DNA from: Miscanthus floridulus
Taxonomy: Eukaryota > Streptophyta > Magnoliopsida > Poales > Poaceae
DNA length: 64,000 nt
Assembly: GCF_019320115.1 (NCBI RefSeq)
Contig: NC_089598.1
Coordinates: 79,052,570 to 79,116,569, forward strand
Direction of reading: 5' to 3'
This document shows, piece after piece, positions 3,049 through 12,914 of the stretch. Every line of letters begins with the position of its first letter. Position 1 is the stretch's first letter. The position numbers were made by a program, and so were the translations under genes. A model generated the notes under the pieces. The model worked only from the letters and a program-made list of their open reading frames with translations, did not search any database and was not told the origin of the DNA.

Positions 3049-3691
3049 TCAACTACAATATTGGATAGGGAACCTTGTTCTATGATTTGTAAATTCTAGA
3101 TGCTCCATCTCTTGACACAATGTTCGCTGCATCGGTTCTACAATTAGGCAATGACAATGACTCTTGCGACTCAGGGCATCGGCAACCACATTAGCCTTGC
3201 CCGGATGATAATGCACTTCTAAATCATAATCTTTGATAAGTTCTAACCATCTTCTTTGCCTCATATTCAACTCTGACTGAGTGAAGATGTATTTCAAACT
3301 TTTGTGATCCGTATAGATATGACATATATTGCCCAATAAATAATGTCGCCAAATCTTGAGTGAATGGAACAACAACAGCTAATTCAAGATCATGGGTGGG
3401 ATAATGTTCCTCATGCTTCTTGAGTTGTCTGGAAGCGTATGCTATGACTCTGCCTTCTTGCATAAGAACACAGCCAATACCAATTCCAGATGCATCACAA
3501 TAGATATCAAATGGCCTCTCGATATCCGGTTGTGCTAATACTGGTGCAGTTGTCAGCAACTTCTTCAATGTCTGAAAGGCCTCTTCACATTCTGTTGACC
3601 ATACAAACTTAGTTTGATTTTTCAATAGTCTAGTAATTGGCTTCGCAATTCTAGAGAAGTCAGGGATAAACCGACGGTAATACCCTGCCAA
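3049..3691 (-). pseudogene. Gypsy RNase H and RT connection (chromovirus C)
   Basis: The segment starts with the RT thumb/connection motif ([20 protein letters not shown]). It continues into RNase H with [15 protein letters not shown] (catalytic DAS), the [21 protein letters not shown] block, and in the next frame [10 protein letters not shown] and [17 protein letters not shown]. RNase H removes template RNA during reverse transcription. The frame changes around 3370, inside the conserved block, showing a small indel. Confidence 0.88.
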
Positions 3692-3701
3692 CCCCAGGAA
3701 A

Positions 3702-4398
3702 CTACGAACTTGATGAACAGTTGTAGGTGCTTTCCAAGTTAAGGACTTCTTCTACCTTGCTCGGATCAACAGCTATACCTTCAGTAGATAGTACATGACC
3801 TAGAAATTGTACTTCCTCTAACCAAAATGCACATTTGCTGAATTTGGCATATAGTTGGTGGTCTCTTAACCTTTGTAGAACAATACGGAGATGTTCCGCA
3901 TGTTCCTCTTTGCTCTTAGAATAGATAAGAATGTCGTCTATGAACACCATGACAAACTTATCTAACTCAGGCATGAAAACTGAGTTCATCAGGTACATGA
4001 AATGAGCCGGGGCATTGGTTAGCCCAAAAGACATGACTAGATACTCATATAGACCATATCGGGTAGTAAATGCTGTCTTTGGCACATCTTCACGTCTGAT
4101 CTTAATCTAGGTGGTAGCCTGATCTTAGGTCTATCTTCGAAAATACCTTAGCTCCCGCAAGTTGATCAAAAAGCAAATCAATTCGGGGTAAGGGGTATTT
4201 GTTCTTGATGGTGACTTCATTTAATGGCCGATAGTCAACACATAACCTCAAGGTTTGGTCCTTCTTCTTCACGAAGATAGCAGGGCATCCCCAAGGTGAT
4301 GAACTGGGTTGAATGAAACCCTTGTCTAACAACTCTTGTAGTTGCATTTTTAATTCTGCTAGTTCCTTGGGTGGCATCCTATATGCTCTTCTGGACAC
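3702..4398 (-). pseudogene. Reverse transcriptase (chromovirus C)
   Basis: Fingers and palm motifs are present in order: [68 protein letters not shown] and [10 protein letters not shown] (the active-site pair DD). The two halves (4102-4398 and 3702-4085) are in different frames, with a break just after the SGYH motif. A second break at 3691-3702 separates RT from the connection domain. Confidence 0.9.
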
Positions 4399-4960
4399 TG
4401 GTGCTGTCCCTAGGTTTCAGATCAATTCTGAACTCTACGTCTCGGTCTGGTGGCAGACCAGGCAGATCATCGGGAAAGACATCCATAAACTCACATACCA
4501 CTGAAATTTTCTCGACTCCTTCAACAATAGTTGCACAGACTGTTTCCACTGTACTCTTAGGAAAGGGAAGTTGGATGAGAAGTTGGGTTTTGCTGTCAGG
4601 TGCATTTACCCTTATGGTTCTACGCAGGACATCTATGATAGCCCCGTGCTGAGTTAACCAGTTCATACCAAGGATCACATCTATATCTTGATCCTTTAAT
4701 ATCAGCATATTGGTAGGGAACTCATAACCTCCCAAATCAATAGGTACATGCTGAACTACCTCCCTTGTATAGATTCGTCCCCTAGGCGACTGTATATGAT
4801 AGGGTTCTTTTGTTTCCCCAATAGCTATCCCATGCTTCACAACAAATGTACGATTGATGAATGTATGGGATGCACCAGAATCAAATAAGGTAATTGCAGG
4901 ATGCTTAGCAATGGGAAACATACCCATCATAACTGGTTCTCCTTCTGGAATAGATTCCAC
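4379..4960 (-). pseudogene. Aspartic protease and RT N-terminus (chromovirus C)
   Basis: 193 residues are open. Residues 23-33 contain the retropepsin-type active site (LFDSGASHTFI, Asp at residue 27), followed by LGMNWL near residue 96. The last third is the linker into RT (VFPDDLPGLPPDRDVEFRIDL). Protease would cut the Gag-Pol precursor in the particle. The active-site triad is intact, but neither Gag nor RT is in the same frame. Confidence 0.87.
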
Positions 4961-5084: not shown

Positions 5085-5931
5085 CTAGGATACGGACATT
5101 CTCAGGGAAAAATGTCTAGGTTTACCACAATTATAACATGGAAAATTGTGATTCTGGGGAGTAGCATTGCGGTTTGCATTATTTGTATTGTTCTGCTGCT
5201 GCTGGTGCTTGATGAGTATAAGGCGTATTAGTTGCAGGGCGAATAAAGATCTACTGCCTGCTTTGGCCTTGTTGTGGGCGGAATGGTGCACGGCCATGAT
5301 TCTGAGGATGGTATACGATCTTCTGACGCTTTCCACTCGACGATCCGGAAGCAAATATTTTCTTCTTCTTCGCCTCCTTGTGTCGGCGGTAATTCTCCTC
5401 TGAAGCGATAGCAATGTTGATTGTCTCGTGGTAAGTTGCGTTACCACAAGTTGCCATCATGGTCTGAAGTTTAGTGTTCAGGCCTCTAAGAAAATGATTC
5501 TTTTTCTTCCTGTCAGTATTCACATACTCAATAGCATACTGCGATAGGTGGTTAAAACGCCCAACATAATGCATCACTGGGTGCTCCCCTTGCTTAAGAG
5601 CCAAGAACTCTTCTAACTTCATGGTCATCACACCGTCTGGAATATAGTGTGCCCTAAAGGCATCCTTGAACTCCCTCCAGTTGATTTGGTGACCAGCGGG
5701 CTATACTGCCACCAAATTTGCCCACCAGGCACCAGCAGCTCCTCGGAGTTGCTGTGCCGCAAACCTAGGTTTCTGAACCTCGGTACAGTGAATTAGCTCG
5801 AACTTTTGCTCTATTGTCCTAAGCCAATCGTCTGCTTCTAAAGGTTCTTCTGCCTTAGAGAACACTGGTGGACGTGTGTCAGTAAAATCCACATAAGGTT
5901 GACTCGTCATTTCCATTATTACGATGGCCAC
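5085..5931 (-). pseudogene. Gag core and zinc knuckle (chromovirus C)
   Basis: The capsid-like core includes PLEADDWLRTIEQKFEL, RFAAQQLRGAAGAWWANL and FLALKQGEHPVMHYVGRFNHLSQYA, as in retrotransposon Gag. A basic stretch (RRHKEAKKKK) precedes a CCHC knuckle beginning CYNCGKPRHF. The last knuckle Cys is reached only in another frame, so an indel sits inside the knuckle near 5100-5115. Pieces 5701-5931 and 5251-5631 share a frame and are separated by stops; the knuckle piece is in a different frame. Confidence 0.85.
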
Positions 5932-6174: not shown

Positions 6175-6483
6175 CTACAAAGGGTCCTTATTTATATTAC
6201 ATGTCTTGTATCCCACAAGACAACCCTGGTTTTCTAGGAAAGCAGTAAAGGAACTACTTCTACTCCAAGCTCTCAGTCTTCGGCATCCGTGCCCATATCG
6301 GACGAAAACCTCATCTTCATCTGAGAAGTACACCAACTCCTCAGGATCCTCCTCCTCTTCTTCATTCTCGACTTCTCCTAGAGCTACAATCATTTCTTCA
6401 TCGGTAACTTCACCATCCCCATGAGGAGGATGAAGTTGAGCGTACAACAGGTGGACATTCTCATGAAGAATGGCATTGTCCAT
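6175..6483 (-). pseudogene. Acidic middle part of Gag (chromovirus C)
   Basis: The segment is rich in Glu/Asp (EVENEEEEEDPEELVYFSDEDEVF) and lies between the basic Gag N-terminus and the core. It is out of frame with the N-terminal segment, with a break near 6480-6490. I recognise no domain. The acidic composition could balance the basic tail upstream, but that is inference. Confidence 0.6.
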
Positions 6484-6541: not shown

Positions 6542-6811
6542 TCATGTCCAGGCTTCATTCCGCAACTCCATGGTCATGGTGATACCCCTTTGCATTTCCG
6601 CCAGCTCTTCTTGATCTTTGGCATGAGCTCGATGAAGAGTGTTGAGCTCCTTGTTAAGGTTCTCGATGTTGGCGGGGTTGCTTGAAGATCCTTCCTCTCC
6701 TAGGTTCTTGGAACTTCCTTCACCAAGCTCGTGATTTCTTGGTGCCAATTGGTGACGAGGGACTCCATGAGGTCCGGTGGACTTGCGTGCGGTTTTCTTG
6801 GTCTTTGCCAT
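6542..6811 (-). pseudogene. Gag N-terminus with histone-H3-tail-like start (chromovirus C)
   Basis: 90 codons from the first ATG after the PBS. The protein opens MAKTKKTARKSTG, then PRHQLAPR. Against the canonical histone H3 tail this keeps the TK (Lys4) and TARKST (Lys9/Ser10) contexts and the P-R-x-Q-L-A block, with one extra residue between. The rest is low-complexity followed by a predicted coiled coil (NLNKELNTLHRAHAKDQEELAEMQ). The ATG is the natural gag start: it is ~370 bases after the PBS and nothing longer is open upstream. A TGA at the end of the segment lies where an Arg codon (CGA) is plausible. Confidence 0.75.
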
Positions 6812-7183: not shown

Positions 7184-7195
7184 GCTCTGATACCA
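7184..7195 (-). other. Primer-binding site of chromovirus C (iMet-type)
   Basis: The minus strand reads TGGTATCAGAGC, the usual complement of the plant initiator-Met tRNA 3' end, two bases inside the 5' LTR edge at 7198. The gap 6812-7183 is untranslated leader, with no gene seen. Confidence 0.92.
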
Positions 7196-7197
7196 GC

Positions 7198-10100
7198 TGT
7201 GGCAGAACCTCCTAAGGAATCGGGCCCACGTGCACCTATCAGTTGTCTTAACAGACCTCGGATAGCGTACACGAGTTCCCAACAACTCAACAGGTCTGTC
7301 GGGTGTCCTCGGGAAACCTGAATCATCCACGATTCTCTTTTCAAACAGGATCCCAATCACAGATCATTGCAGATTACAACAGTTTATTCAAATATATACC
7401 AGAGTAAAAGATAGCGGAAGTCTTAAGATAACATAGTTACAAACCAGTTGTTTTCAAACTTACAATACCATAAGTGTCATACAACCATAGTAGCGGGATA
7501 ATATTACATTAACTTTATTTATCATACAAACTAGTGCCTTGTCCAAAGGCCATTCATCACTCCTCATCGTCATTGACTTCAAACACAGACATGCAGCAGG
7601 GACCAAAACAAGCCTGCGCATGCGACTCACCTGCAACAAGGGTTAACAAACCCTGAGTACAAAGGTACTCAACAAGACTAACCCGACATAACGGGATGTA
7701 AGACTTTAGAGATGCAGGGGTTTGGGGCAAGGTAAGGATGTAGCAAGATTCAAAAGTTCTTTGCCAAAAGCTTACTATTCTTCATTCTATTTTCAAGTTT
7801 TACCCCTAAGTTCTTTTAGTTCATTATCTCAACTAAATGTACATTTCCCATATTCCATTCCTTCTCATTCCATTCTCTTCTCATATTTTAGTAATTCACC
7901 AGTCCTACATTGCTTCTGTAATGAATCGAGTCTTCATATCCGCGGAGCACCGGCAATTCGAATTGATTCAATTCCCAGCTGGGGATTCCTTATCACACGA
8001 CATATGTAGAACTTAATCTTGCAGTACATCAACCTCGCTACCGGATCCTCCTATACTAAGCCGTCTCCACTGCCACCCGAGAGCACTAGCACACCTCAAA
8101 TCTAGGCCACATTCTAGCCACTGAGGGTACACGCTACTCCCGCCATCTCTCCACTCCCTAGTGCGTGGGCATTCGTCTTAGTATCAGATTAGCCGAAGTA
8201 GGCTTACCGGAGTATGTGACCAGTACTATAAAGTGTCTCGTTTAGAAGATCCACAATGAGTGGCCTTTAAGCGACATAGTCTGGCAACATTACCCAAAAT
8301 TCAAGATAAGTCACCTGACTAGTCTCTAGTTCATTCTATCTTCTTTCTTTCTTTGGCCAGTATGCCATCTTTGATTGTATTGAAACTTTTACTTTGAAAG
8401 CCTACCATAAAGCATACTAAGCATTCTACGCCTTTGTAAATGAAAACATCTTCAAGGATGGTAAACAATTATCAAGGTAGGTAATGCATCAAGTAGGTAA
8501 CATTTGAATTAAACAACTTAATGCAATAAGTAACATAGGTGATAAACTTTTCAAAGTAAACAAGGTAATGGCTTAATGCATAAACCGGGGCTTGCCTTCG
8601 TTGACGATCTCAGGTTCTCGGATCCGTACCACAATTATCGAATCCCGTGACAACCGGGGATTCTTCCAGAACTTGCTCAACTAGAATCATTTCACTCTCG
8701 GGTTCTACCTGAAACGATATAACATATGCCTTAACATGATGATAATGTAAACATGATGCTTTCATGGTACATGAAATGTAAAAACACCCGGCAAATGATT
8801 TTATTTCCCTGTACAGTTGCAAGCCAACAAAACCAACTTGCAATCCTACCATCAAGAACCACACATGTGTCTTAACCAAATGGATCTTGAAACCCAACTA
8901 GTCACAAAACATGACCAAAACAAGATCCAACACTAATCAAACACTTAGGGTTTGTCTTTATTTATTTTTGAATTAATCTGGAATTAATCCCAAGAGTGAA
9001 CTTGTTCCAAATGACCTGAAAATTTTATGTAAGCTTCCTCATGACAAATTAGTGTACCAAAACAAATTTCATAATTTTTGGAATTATACAGTGACCTACA
9101 AAAATCATGGAAATTGCATTTTTCAATTAATAGACTGAATATTTGAGCATTAAACATTTATTCAATTTCAAATTTTAAATCATACTAGAAACATGTATAG
9201 AAGCTACACACAAAATTTCATAATTTTTGGAGCTATGATTATTTTTCTACAAATTTCCAAAGATTTAGCACTATTCAAAACAGAAAATAAACAAAGCTCA
9301 CTATTCTCTCTCTTGCTCTCACTGACAGCCGGCCCCCCACCTGTCATCCCCAACCTCGGGCATTGACTTGGCTGCGACGGCGCTGACCGGCGCTAATTCG
9401 CCGGTGATATCAGTGAGTCTAACAGCGATGGCCAAAGCACTAACATGCTCACAAGAGCTAGGCACATCGATCAGTGGCACTTTGGAGGTCGATTACGACA
9501 TGGAATGAAGCTAACACCGACCATGGTGGACGCGGTGGCACGGCAGTGTTACACCAGCGAAACAAGGCCAGTAACGGTGAAACAGAGAGTACAGGAAGCA
9601 TCAGTGGCTCACCTTGATCGTGTTGAAGCAACATGCGAGACCGGAGAAGCTACGGTGACGCGTTTCGACGGTGACCGGGATCACGGCGGAGCGGACCTCG
9701 TCGACGACAGTGTTTTGGTGACTACAGTGGGCAAAATGAGCAGGCAAGAGTGGAATGAGCACTACAGCATCGAGACAAATCCATAGAGCCAACCAGCAAG
9801 GGCAACAGCTCACCGGACAAGGCTGGCCATGGTGAATCGGAGCTTCCATCGATGTCGCCGACCACGAGGAAGATGAACGTGTACTGCGAGCTCTCGGTGA
9901 AATTAGGTGGTAGCAATAGCTTGGTCGAATGCGCAAGGAGCAGGTGGAACTAGAACATGGCTTTGACGGGGCTTGCTTGCGCTGAGGAGACGAGAGAAGC
10001 TCGCCGGAGTTGAGACGGCGGTGTCGGGAAAACAGAGAGAAGGAAGAAAAACGAACAGCGACTTCTGAGCTATATAGCGCGGCAAGGAGCGCGCGGAATC

Positions 10101-10867
10101 GACACACAGCGTGCTCCCCGTGCCAGCGCAAAGCTAAGGGTGGTCGTAGGCGCGCCTAGAAGGCCGGAGAAGGACGCCGGCGGTGAGGCGGTGACAGCCT
10201 GTAGTTATCTGGATTTTTGAAGTATTTACAGATTTGCCACTGCGTCTATTTTTTAAATTACTCCCAAATTTTCTAAAGAAGTTGAAAATCTCCAAAAACA
10301 AAAGTTGCTCAAATTTTCAAACTCTACAACTTTGCTTCTAGGAACATTTTCAAATTCTGCCTCCATTTTGAAATTTGAATTTGGGGTGCATTTGAGTATT
10401 GGAATCATTTCAAAATTACTCCAAATTTTATATGTAAACTTGAAAAACTTTGAATACCAAAGTTGATCCTTATAAAATAATCTTCAACTTTGCTTTTTAC
10501 CTCAACCCCAAATTCCACATGGATTTTGAATTAGGCAAAAGGGGCAAAAATGACTTTTATGATTTAAATTTGAATTCAAATTTGATTTGTTTACCTTTTG
10601 CTTTAACTTTGATTTTTGACCAGTAACATGACCCATTAGGGTTATTTGAGTCAAATGACACATGGTCTCACATGATCACATGGAATTTGACCCTTGTGGT
10701 CATGATCTTTATTTAGGGTTTTGAATCACATCACATGAAATAATAACATTATGAAATAAACCTTATTTAGTGAATGCATTCAAAATTTTCTACTTTATGA
10801 ATGCTTTGCAATGCATATGATGACATGTCAAATTTTAGTGTTAGGTCAAAACACCAGAGGTGTTACA
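7198..10867 (-). repeat. 5' LTR of chromovirus C (3670 bp, complete)
   Basis: Both edges are TG...CA: the minus strand starts TGTAACACC at 10867 and ends CTGCCACA at 7198 next to the PBS. It matches solo LTR B along its whole length in opposite orientation. A TATA motif lies at 10070-10076, followed (minus strand) by a GC-rich leader to about 9310 and then AT-rich sequence. The inner half carries AATAAA-like signals near 7380-7540. Open frames within it are antisense or leader frames that differ among copies and are not called genes. Confidence 0.94.
10070..10076 (-). promoter_or_regulatory. TATA box of LTR C
   Basis: Minus strand TATATAG, in the same LTR position as 17937-17943 in solo LTR B. 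AT-rich sequence lies upstream and a GC-rich leader downstream, as expected for the LTR core promoter. Confidence 0.6.
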
Positions 10868-11072
10868 ACAAGCCCACAAACATGTCATATGCTACCACTA
10901 GATCATTTTAAGCATACAAGCATCAAATTCATTTGATTTTCATGAATGAGCCTAAGACATGTGAGGAATGATTAGATGTACTAAACAAGTCCTTAGCATT
11001 AGATGAATGACATGTTAATCAACTTTATCTTGCTTTTTCTCAAAGGAGAGGCATGTCATATAATGGGGTGCA
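10868..11072 (-). other. Start of the 3' region of copia-1, cut by chromovirus C
   Basis: The sequence parallels copia-2 from ~46624 (ACAAGCCCACAAACATG and onwards), which is 3' untranslated Sirevirus sequence. ACAAG at 10868-10872 is the likely target duplication of C; its partner would lie left of the window. No gene is present. Confidence 0.75.
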
Positions 11073-12914
11073 TCAACACATATTTGAGAAGTCAAGTATG
11101 TTCAATTCATTCTTTAGCTTGCAAAACCTCTTCTCATCAAGTGGCTTGGTAAAGATACCGACAAGTTGATCATCAGTTTCCACACTCTTAATGCAAATAT
11201 CCCCTTTTTGTTGGTGATCTCTTATGAAATGTTGGTGGACATCAATGTGCTTTGTTCTTGCATGTTGAACCAGATTGTTGGTGAGCTTGATTGCACTCTC
11301 ATTGTCATATAGCAATGGCACTTGCTTGAACTTGATTCTAAAATCACTCAAAGTAGCCTTCATCCATAGTAATTATGCACAACAACTATCGGCCAAAATA
11401 TACTCTGCTTTGGCGGTTGAAAGTGCTATACTATTTTGCTTCTTTGATGACCAAGACACAAGTGATTTTCCCAATAGTTGACATGTGCCCGATGTTCTCT
11501 TTCTCTCAACTTTGCATCCCGCATAATCAGAGTCCGAATATCCAATCAACTCAAATCTTGCTCCTTTGGGATACCACAATCTAACATTTTGTGTATGCTT
11601 CAAGTACCTCAATATTCTCTTTGTTGCCTTCAAATGACTCTCTCTTGGTGAGGCTTGAAATCTAGCACACATACATACACTAAACATTACATCCGGTCTT
11701 GATGCGGTCACATAGAGTAGGCTTCCAATCATAGACCGATACATCTTTTGATCCACCATGTTGCCACTAGCATCACTATCCAAGTTTCTATTTGTCCCCA
11801 TTGGTGTACTAATTGCTTTAGCATCATCCATTCCAAACTTCTTGAGCATGTCTTTGATGTACTTGCCTTTACTCACAAATGTGTAATTCTTCATTTGCTT
11901 GATTTGAAGACCAAGGAAGTAACTAAGCTCTCCAATCATGGACATCTCAAACTCACTTGCCATCATCTTTCCAAACTCCTCACAAAAATCTTGATTGGTT
12001 GATCCAAATATGATATCATTAACATAGAATTGCAATACAAACAAGTCATTGCCAAGCTTCTTAGTGAAGAGAGTGGTGTCAACCTTTCCCATCTTGAACC
12101 CCTTAGAGAGTAGGAAATCCCTCAATCTCTCATACCATGCTCTAGGTGCTTATTTCAATCCATACAAAGCCTTTTTCAACTTGTAGACATGGTTGGGCTT
12201 CTTCTCATCTTCAAAACTGGGAGGTTGCTCAACATACATAAGGTCATTGATGTACCCATTGAGAAATGCACTCTTCACATCCATTTGGTACAACTTGATG
12301 TCATGGGCATATGTTTCTCTAATGTCAAGACCTTCAACTTGAGTGTAACCTTGAGCTACTAATCTTGCTTTGTTCCTTACAACTATCCTATCTTGATCAT
12401 TCTTGTTCCAAAAGACCCATTTTGTTCCAATCACATTATGATCCTTAGGCCTCTCAACTAACTCCCATACTTGATTTCTTGTGAAGTTGTTTAGCTCTTC
12501 ATGCATAGCATTTACCCAATCAACATCCTTCAAAACTTCATCTATCTTCTTTGGTTCAATGGATGAGACAAATGAGAAGTGTTCACAAAATGATACCAAT
12601 CTTGATCTTGTTTGCACACCTCTAGAGATATCACCAATTATAGATTCCAATGGATGATCTCTTGCAACATTGGTTGGTTGGAACACTTGCACTTGATTGG
12701 TTGCATTTGATTGATCACTTGGTTGAGATGATGAACTAGCCACTTGTTGTTGATCTTGCACTTTTTCATCACTAGCACTTGCTTGAACTTGATCATGAGA
12801 ACCATTAGCTTGTAGATTTGAGTTAGAGAGCACTTGATCTTTGTCATCTTCAATATTGATCACCTCTCTAGGCCTTATGTCACCAATGTCCATGTTCTTC
12901 ATTGCATTGACCAA
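11073..12914 (-). pseudogene. Reverse transcriptase-RNase H of copia-1
   Basis: RT motifs include [45 protein letters not shown] and KKALYGLK. The active-site box reads YVNDIIFGS, so the first Asp of YVDD is Asn (codon at 12018-12020). RNase H follows with SDYAGCKVERKRTSGTCQLLG, SWSSKKQNSIALSTAKAEY and the terminal KHIDVHQHFIRDH...GIFTKPLDEKRF. One stop separates 12125 from 12150 in the same frame, and a second break at ~11363-11373 splits RNase H. The segment KGLDIRETYAHDIK lacks residues that copia-2 has at 48050-48130, so an internal deletion near 12300 is visible. Confidence 0.9.

Follow-up and report, generated by a model that had tools for sequence, protein, structure and literature searches.

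A conserved histone H3-like tail on ORF0, an accessory protein of Tekay/Del-type chromoviruses in grasses

On the minus strand of a stretch of 64,000 nucleotides of the Miscanthus floridulus genome (NC_089598.1, positions 79,052,570 to 79,116,569; hereafter "the window"), a frame opened by an ATG at position 6811 reads MAKTKKTARKSTGPHGVPRHQLAPRNHELG. Its beginning, MAKTKKTARKSTGPHGVPRHQLAPR, aligns with the N-terminus of histone H3, with one extra residue in the transposon protein. Which protein of the element carries this tail, does the resemblance go beyond chance, is it kept in related copies, and what might a retrotransposon do with the beginning of a histone?

The minus strand of the window, from position 10867 down past position 1, is occupied by an LTR retrotransposon. 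The 5' LTR (3670 bp) lies at 7198-10867, as defined by the repeat match, the LTR ends and the target-site duplication; the 3' LTR covers positions 1-1435 and continues outside the window to G000:C19:79050331. The duplication, ACAAG (10868-10872), flanks both ends of the element, its partner being located outside the window (L097, 77-81). The LTR pair shares 96.1% identity, with a K2P distance of 0.041 over 1,432 aligned sites; at a grass substitution rate of 1.3e-8, this corresponds to an insertion age of about 1.6 million years. The primer binding site, read from the sequence at 7184-7195 (minus strand), is TGGTATCAGAGC, which we take to be of the tRNA-iMet type, and the same 12-mer is found upstream of the ORF discussed below in four of six fetched relatives. 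The coding part, entirely on the minus strand, comprises gag fragments (5251-5931, with Retrotrans_gag, PF03732, in 5251-5631), an aspartic protease (4379-4960; PF08284), a reverse transcriptase (3702-4398, with PF00078 in 3702-4085 and the segment 4102-4398 assigned by position alone), an RNase H (3224-3691; PF17919/PF17917), the zinc-binding and core domains of the integrase (2358-2912; PF17921, with PF00665 below its cut-off) and the integrase C-terminus (1607-2032), which harbors an SH3-like domain and a group-II-type chromodomain (PF00385, residues 100-137). The Pfam order is thus gag, protease, reverse transcriptase, RNase H, integrase and C-terminal chromodomain, in separate short frames; a second gag-pol copy that was scanned has the identical order, with Chromo just under its curated cut-off. 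The chromodomain that the earlier note had placed in the same element is confirmed by the PF00385 match, and on the basis of its Ty3/gypsy gene order and the altered aromatic cage of its chromodomain the element is assigned to the Tekay/Del-type chromoviruses. Beside it, minus-strand frames at 11073-12125 resemble, by eye, the end of a Ty1/copia polyprotein (reverse transcriptase/RNase H).

The tail corresponds to codons 1-25 of the ATG frame (6737-6811, minus strand), as read from the sequence, and is kept in relatives. In the window copy the frame runs for 89 codons up to an in-frame stop (6542-6811, minus strand), embedding the tail and the first part of a coiled coil; the end of the coil and an acidic region follow at 6175-6483 (minus strand), out of frame with the start, and were recognized from the 178-aa frames of other copies. 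In many of these, which come from the same genome, the corresponding ATG opens a frame of 176-178 aa ending in a stop, and since the window copy shares this ATG with full-length frames, its start codon is supported. When the genome was probed with the coil only, nearly all of the 150 listed rows had an open frame of 179-195 codons, with about six exceptions (counted by eye). In related copies the gag-pol frame starts about 160 nt past the stop of this upstream frame; of six downstream stretches that were fetched, two have gag-pol as one uninterrupted frame of about 1,500 codons with the chromodomain at its end, and in the other four it is broken. As the upstream frame stops before gag-pol, the H3-like tail belongs to a separate upstream protein. 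The earlier note had described it as the start of Gag, an assignment that we rejected because the frame of the relatives ends before gag and the gag homology (PF03732) lies further on.

An upstream ORF of this kind, in the rice elements RIRE3, RIRE8 and Retrosat2, is called ORF0; according to Gao et al. (2012, PMC3485330) it is grass-specific and divergent. Judged by layout and by the description in that paper, the likeness consists of an extra ORF upstream of gag-pol (ORF1), LTRs longer than 3 kb, hosts among the grasses and a rapidly diverging protein. The RIRE3/Retrosat2 layout is found here as well, with an ORF0 of 178 aa, a spacer of about 160 nt, gag-pol and, in the window element, the LTR of 3670 bp. 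Within the Tekay/Del-type chromoviruses, ORF0 ranks as an accessory protein.

As regards its architecture, ORF0 falls into three parts: the H3-like tail, a single long helix of the coiled-coil type and an acidic end that is disordered. An AlphaFold2 model built on 41 aligned ORF0 proteins predicts a single helix from residue 46 to residue 126, with block means mostly of 95-98, and has low confidence for residues 1-45 and for the acidic end. Pfam searches with six ORF0 proteins retrieved weak, mostly coiled-coil matches, with no histone family among the hits shown (25 of 36 in the case of P0083), and a Foldseek search with the model was uninformative (its one match had an E of 6.9, and none reached 0.001). 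The idea that ORF0 is a histone fold or an H3 variant was dropped, since no histone family appears among the Pfam hits shown and the model consists of helix and disorder. Histone H3 and the ORF0 tail have much of residues 1-21 in common, but in the place of a histone fold, which was not seen in ORF0, there is a long coiled coil.

The resemblance to H3 is stronger than the earlier note had stated. That note had described an H3-tail look-alike with one extra residue, which alignment, shuffling and database searching all bear out; its transcription of the tail had, however, omitted the residues PHGV. The 30-residue tail of the window copy scores 67 against the first 31 residues of H3; when the 29 residues that follow the Met were shuffled 20,000 times, this value was never reached (maximum 50), and in a close relative (P0001) the part from residue 31 on scores 14. 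The 30-mer was also searched against the PDB, with 130 matches; the 60 listed consist entirely of histone H3, Cse4 or H3/CENP-A chimaeras, with a best E of 0.0026. Full-length proteins behaved similarly: H3-type chains are among the 60 listed of 147 matches for P0227 (best E 9e-06, over 22 residues without gaps) and among the 60 listed of 124 matches for P0215. Chance resemblance was rejected on the basis of the shuffles, the PDB searches and the contrast in identity between the tail and the rest of the protein described below; the tail thus matches a histone beyond chance and is conserved, both of them features to be expected of a histone mimic.

Three protein searches yielded 249 ORF0 homologues, the first two lists being the best 120 of 424 and the best 120 of 2,227; whole ORF0 proteins were used as probes, tail included, which favours tail-bearing homologues. 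In an alignment of 16 proteins, whose identity to the first row is 29-56%, 16 of 25 invariant columns fall within the first 25 residues. Among 24 diverse ORF0 proteins the mean pairwise identity is 77.3% in the tail vs 32.8% in the rest, and the tail is the more similar part in all 276 pairs; in the 225 pairs in which the rest is less than 40% identical, the corresponding values are 76.6% and 26.9%. In this alignment of N-termini across relatives, a check of the kind that the earlier note had proposed, the tail is far more conserved than the residues that follow it, and Lys9 is nearly fixed.

Positions were counted in 199 of the 249 homologues, a set dominated by the family called D below; most of the 50 dropped start inside the protein or out of frame, but P0142, P0199 and P0201 do carry the tail and simply failed the parsing expression, and P0069, P0078 and P0082 start inside it. 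The position of H3 Lys9 is K in 197 of 199, that of Lys4 is R in 124, K in 73 and W in two, and the other H3 residues are retained as follows: T6 in 192, R8 in 184, G12 in 184, T11 in 182, A7 in 155 and S10 in 143. According to these data, of the contexts of Lys4 and of Lys9/Ser10, both described earlier as kept, only Lys9 itself is retained almost throughout, Lys4 and Ser10 being retained in part. Lys14 is kept in 25 sequences, the Lys18 position is H in 195, and the Lys23 position is K in two and mostly R; basic residues prevail at positions 2, 4, 8, 9, 17 and 23. The residues fixed in ORF0 itself (V15, H18, P22 and R23) are conserved as strongly as those identical to H3, with the proviso that positions 15, 16, 19 and 20 served as the parsing anchor and their conservation is partly by construction. 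Of 26 representatives, a set that includes fragments and whose members are at most 70% alike beyond the tail, 24 have K9 and nine have K14.

The families differ in the details of the tail. In family B (L059-L070, P0068-P0080) TARK is mostly replaced by TPRK, presumably a site of the proline-directed kinase type, and T6, R8 and K9 are mostly kept; Ala7 is thus not required. Family D (P0084-P0120 and many of P0121-P0212) reads MPPRTRKTARKST, with an extra N-terminal residue, R at position 4 and K9 kept. P0222 reads MARTKRTARNSTGGRVSRHQLAPR and has N at the K9 position; P0225, P0226, P0230, P0231, P0233, P0234, P0238 and P0249, which start after the tail, apparently form one further family with it. 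Close forms of P0096 (family D) and of P0227 were not found among 150 scored candidates each in the genome, the listed matches being 34-44% identical and many of them at places also listed for family B. ORF0-type proteins also turn up in protein sets from metagenomes, where they bear the names of prokaryotic or phage proteins (FlaC, SlyX, glutamine synthetase type III, Gam) and presumably represent plant DNA in the samples; a scan of viral contigs returned 52 stretches, with no relative of ORF0 among them.

At the codon level, we compared 12 of the 35 full-length copies of family A with three of the 12 copies of family B, namely those of at least 180 aa (36 pairs). The tail has a pS of 0.58 and a pN of 0.19, and from codon 41 on ORF0 has a pS of 0.88, which is saturated, and a pN of 0.40. 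With pN below pS, the tail is under purifying selection. Because the synonymous sites of the rest are saturated, the dN/dS values of the two parts are not comparable (the tail also has the lower pS), and the contrast between tail and rest is drawn from the amino-acid identities instead. The tail has diverged less in amino acids than the rest between the two families.

In order that copies were not chosen by their tail, the genome was also searched with the coil only, and from each list of 150 places 20 were taken, spread from top to bottom. In family A the tail is present in 20 of 20 copies, with an exact ARKSTGP in 14 and K9 in 19; in family B a recognizable tail with K9 is present in 20 of 20, although the first part of the tail is out of frame in one copy (L109) and the start Met is changed in another (L103). 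The differences among the sampled copies look like ordinary decay, and conservation of the tail within the genome partly reflects the youth of the copies.

Where might such a tail come from? A DNA pattern for ten residues of the ORF0-type tail has 971+907 = 1,878 exact matches in the genome (reversed control, 0), and the corresponding pattern of canonical H3 has 56, at least two of which are ORF0; these counts imply that most places with the ORF0-type pattern are not canonical H3 genes. Four ORF0 places with a near-perfect tail were opened, two from the 1,878 matches and two from the list of 56. The frames of L120 and L121 begin with residues 1-13 of H3 unchanged, and those of L122 and L123 with residues 1-16 unchanged, K14 included; P0227, from another source, has an H3-like start of 22 residues without gaps. 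L124 gave no exact pattern match on the plus strand, and L125, a control, reads as a host H3 exon. Over the first 39 nt, one host H3 exon agrees with L120-L123 at 32-36 positions; with the window copy it agrees at 30. This fits a capture of the tail from a host H3 gene, without proving it, as the amino acids are identical anyway; capture is the most likely origin. The four near-perfect places, L120 (1501-2487), L121 (minus strand), L122 and L123, encode a longer ORF0, in which an added stretch of about 150-190 residues (F.GEFG.PTLLWRVL...) separates the tail from the coil. For the added region of L120 no Pfam family was matched; the L120 coil is homologous to those of the short-type ORF0 proteins with the tails left out (E 4.7e-13).

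The earlier note had suggested that the tail recruits the element's own integrase. The chromodomain of the window element retains the cage tryptophan but carries H in place of the third aromatic residue of HP1-type domains; the first cage aromatic is missing by eye, its site being outside the printed alignment. Its motif, DEATWESE, is one residue off the EEXTWEXE reported for Tekay chromodomains (Novikova et al. 2012, PMC3350952), and a family B copy reads EEATWESE; altered-cage integrase chromodomain and TWE motif are shared with the Tekay/Del group-II chromoviruses of that paper. According to the same source, Y24 is missing from group II chromodomains, as Y48 usually is, no factor interacting with them was identified, and the same type is present in other plant clades; its parts covered here mention neither ORF0 nor an H3-like tail. 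The altered cage, together with these published data, weakens the suggestion, and judging from its residues the element's own chromodomain appears a weak, rather poor, candidate as reader of the tail. That the tail is its ligand would be in line with both being encoded by one element; with the third residue of the cage replaced and the first, by eye, missing, with the domain type occurring in other plant clades (PMC3350952) and with relatives lacking ORF0 (PMC3485330), we consider it highly improbable.

The reading that we prefer, with a probability of about one half, is that ORF0 is a captured H3-tail mimic that engages the host H3K9 machinery and acts as an anti-silencing decoy. Removal of the Met would leave the tail of the MA-starting families beginning with Ala, as in H3; the coiled coil would present two or more tails, which host H3K9 methyltransferases and readers (SUVH/KYP, CMT3, ADCP1 and SHH1) might engage as if they were H3. 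Such a multivalent decoy could occupy or divert the H3K9me2/DNA-methylation machinery that silences the element. The H3K9me2 axis is indicated by the near-fixed K9 and the H3-like start of the MA families, combined with the replacement of K18, K23 and, mostly, K14. The Agenet reader ADCP1 contacts H3R2 and K9me2 and, as described, does not bind H3K27me3 (PMC6318295), so that a mimic of the H3 start could meet readers of this type. A more detailed version, which we hold tentatively, is that grass chromoviruses fused a captured H3 5' end to a coiled coil, and that a soluble, multivalent ORF0 methylated at K9 would draw off CMT3, ADCP1 and the readers of RNA-directed methylation. Some observations speak against a decoy: nuclei should contain far more host H3 than ORF0, so that simple titration is hard to envisage; the equal conservation of the residues proper to ORF0 indicates that the tail has a constraint of its own; the loss of Ala7 and the variable S10 might be incompatible with a strict K9 writer or chromodomain; the family of P0222 has N at K9; and the start of family D would disturb readers needing a free Ala1.

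The identity of the tail to H3 and its conservation would also be explained if host heterochromatin readers bound it: ORF0 would then bring the particle or integration complex to H3K9me2 chromatin and steer where the element integrates. The coiled coil could serve as a bridge, another route of targeting would be useful to an integrase whose chromodomain cage seems incomplete (PMC3350952), and FRetro3, a relative that bears ORF0, shows enrichment near the centromeres of O. brachyantha (PMC3485330). Nevertheless, nothing links ORF0 with the particle or integrase, Retrosat2 itself is dispersed rather than concentrated in specific regions, and relatives without ORF0 persist too (Gao et al. 2012, PMC3485330). 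Such a tether is, with competition for host silencing readers, one of our two leading readings, and the less likely of them. The tail sequence alone cannot separate decoy from tether; the decoy is preferred because ORF0 is accessory and, according to the same paper, is not found in relatives from several plants. The likeness to H3 might also stem from an import pathway rather than from histone marks, the basic tail being an H3-type import signal or an RNA/DNA-binding arm. Basic residues do prevail at the six positions listed above. Carriers of the importin-beta family recognize the H3 tail as an import signal, but K14 and K23, key contacts for these carriers, are altered in most homologues (kept in 25 and two of 199, respectively), even though L122 and L123 retain K14, and simple signals need no 13-16 consecutive H3 residues; we regard this reading as unlikely. 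Finally, the variation at positions 5, 7, 10 and 14 would suit a captured H3 exon drifting without function, or a chance resemblance; against this stand the identity of 0.77 in the tail vs 0.33 in the rest, a pN lower than pS in the tail, the shuffles and the PDB searches, and such a relic has very little probability in our opinion.

The decoy reading has parallels among known systems. Influenza NS1 and SARS-CoV-2 ORF8 are viral histone-tail mimics, proposed to engage host chromatin factors, and share with ORF0 a short H3-like stretch in the protein of a parasite; the viral mimics are short motifs, whereas ORF0 has up to 16 consecutive H3 residues at its N-terminus and belongs to a transposon, in abundant families. 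VANA and VANC are plant transposon accessory proteins reported to oppose host silencing; unlike what is proposed for ORF0, they act on the DNA methylation of related copies, and we know of no histone-like tail in them. For ORF0 itself, Gao et al. (2012, PMC3485330) derive functions of the hydrolase, acyltransferase or transporter type from fold models, whereas an H3-tail mimic is proposed here; the words histone, chromatin and coiled are absent from their main text, and the parts of the paper covered report no conserved tail in ORF0. In the open PMC literature, as far as its texts were covered, there is no report of an H3-like tail in ORF0 or in any plant retrotransposon protein. ORF0 was thus already known, with guessed metabolic functions.

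In practical terms, searches with H3 N-terminal peptides, or antibodies against them, might in grasses meet transposon proteins with the same residues. If ORF0 is an H3-tail mimic, transposons would join viruses in histone mimicry, and the imitated mark would be one that is central to the plant pathway silencing these very elements. This, in turn, would represent a transposon counter-defence by means of a histone tail, persisting in abundant families, and would offer a reason for the high numbers that these families reach.
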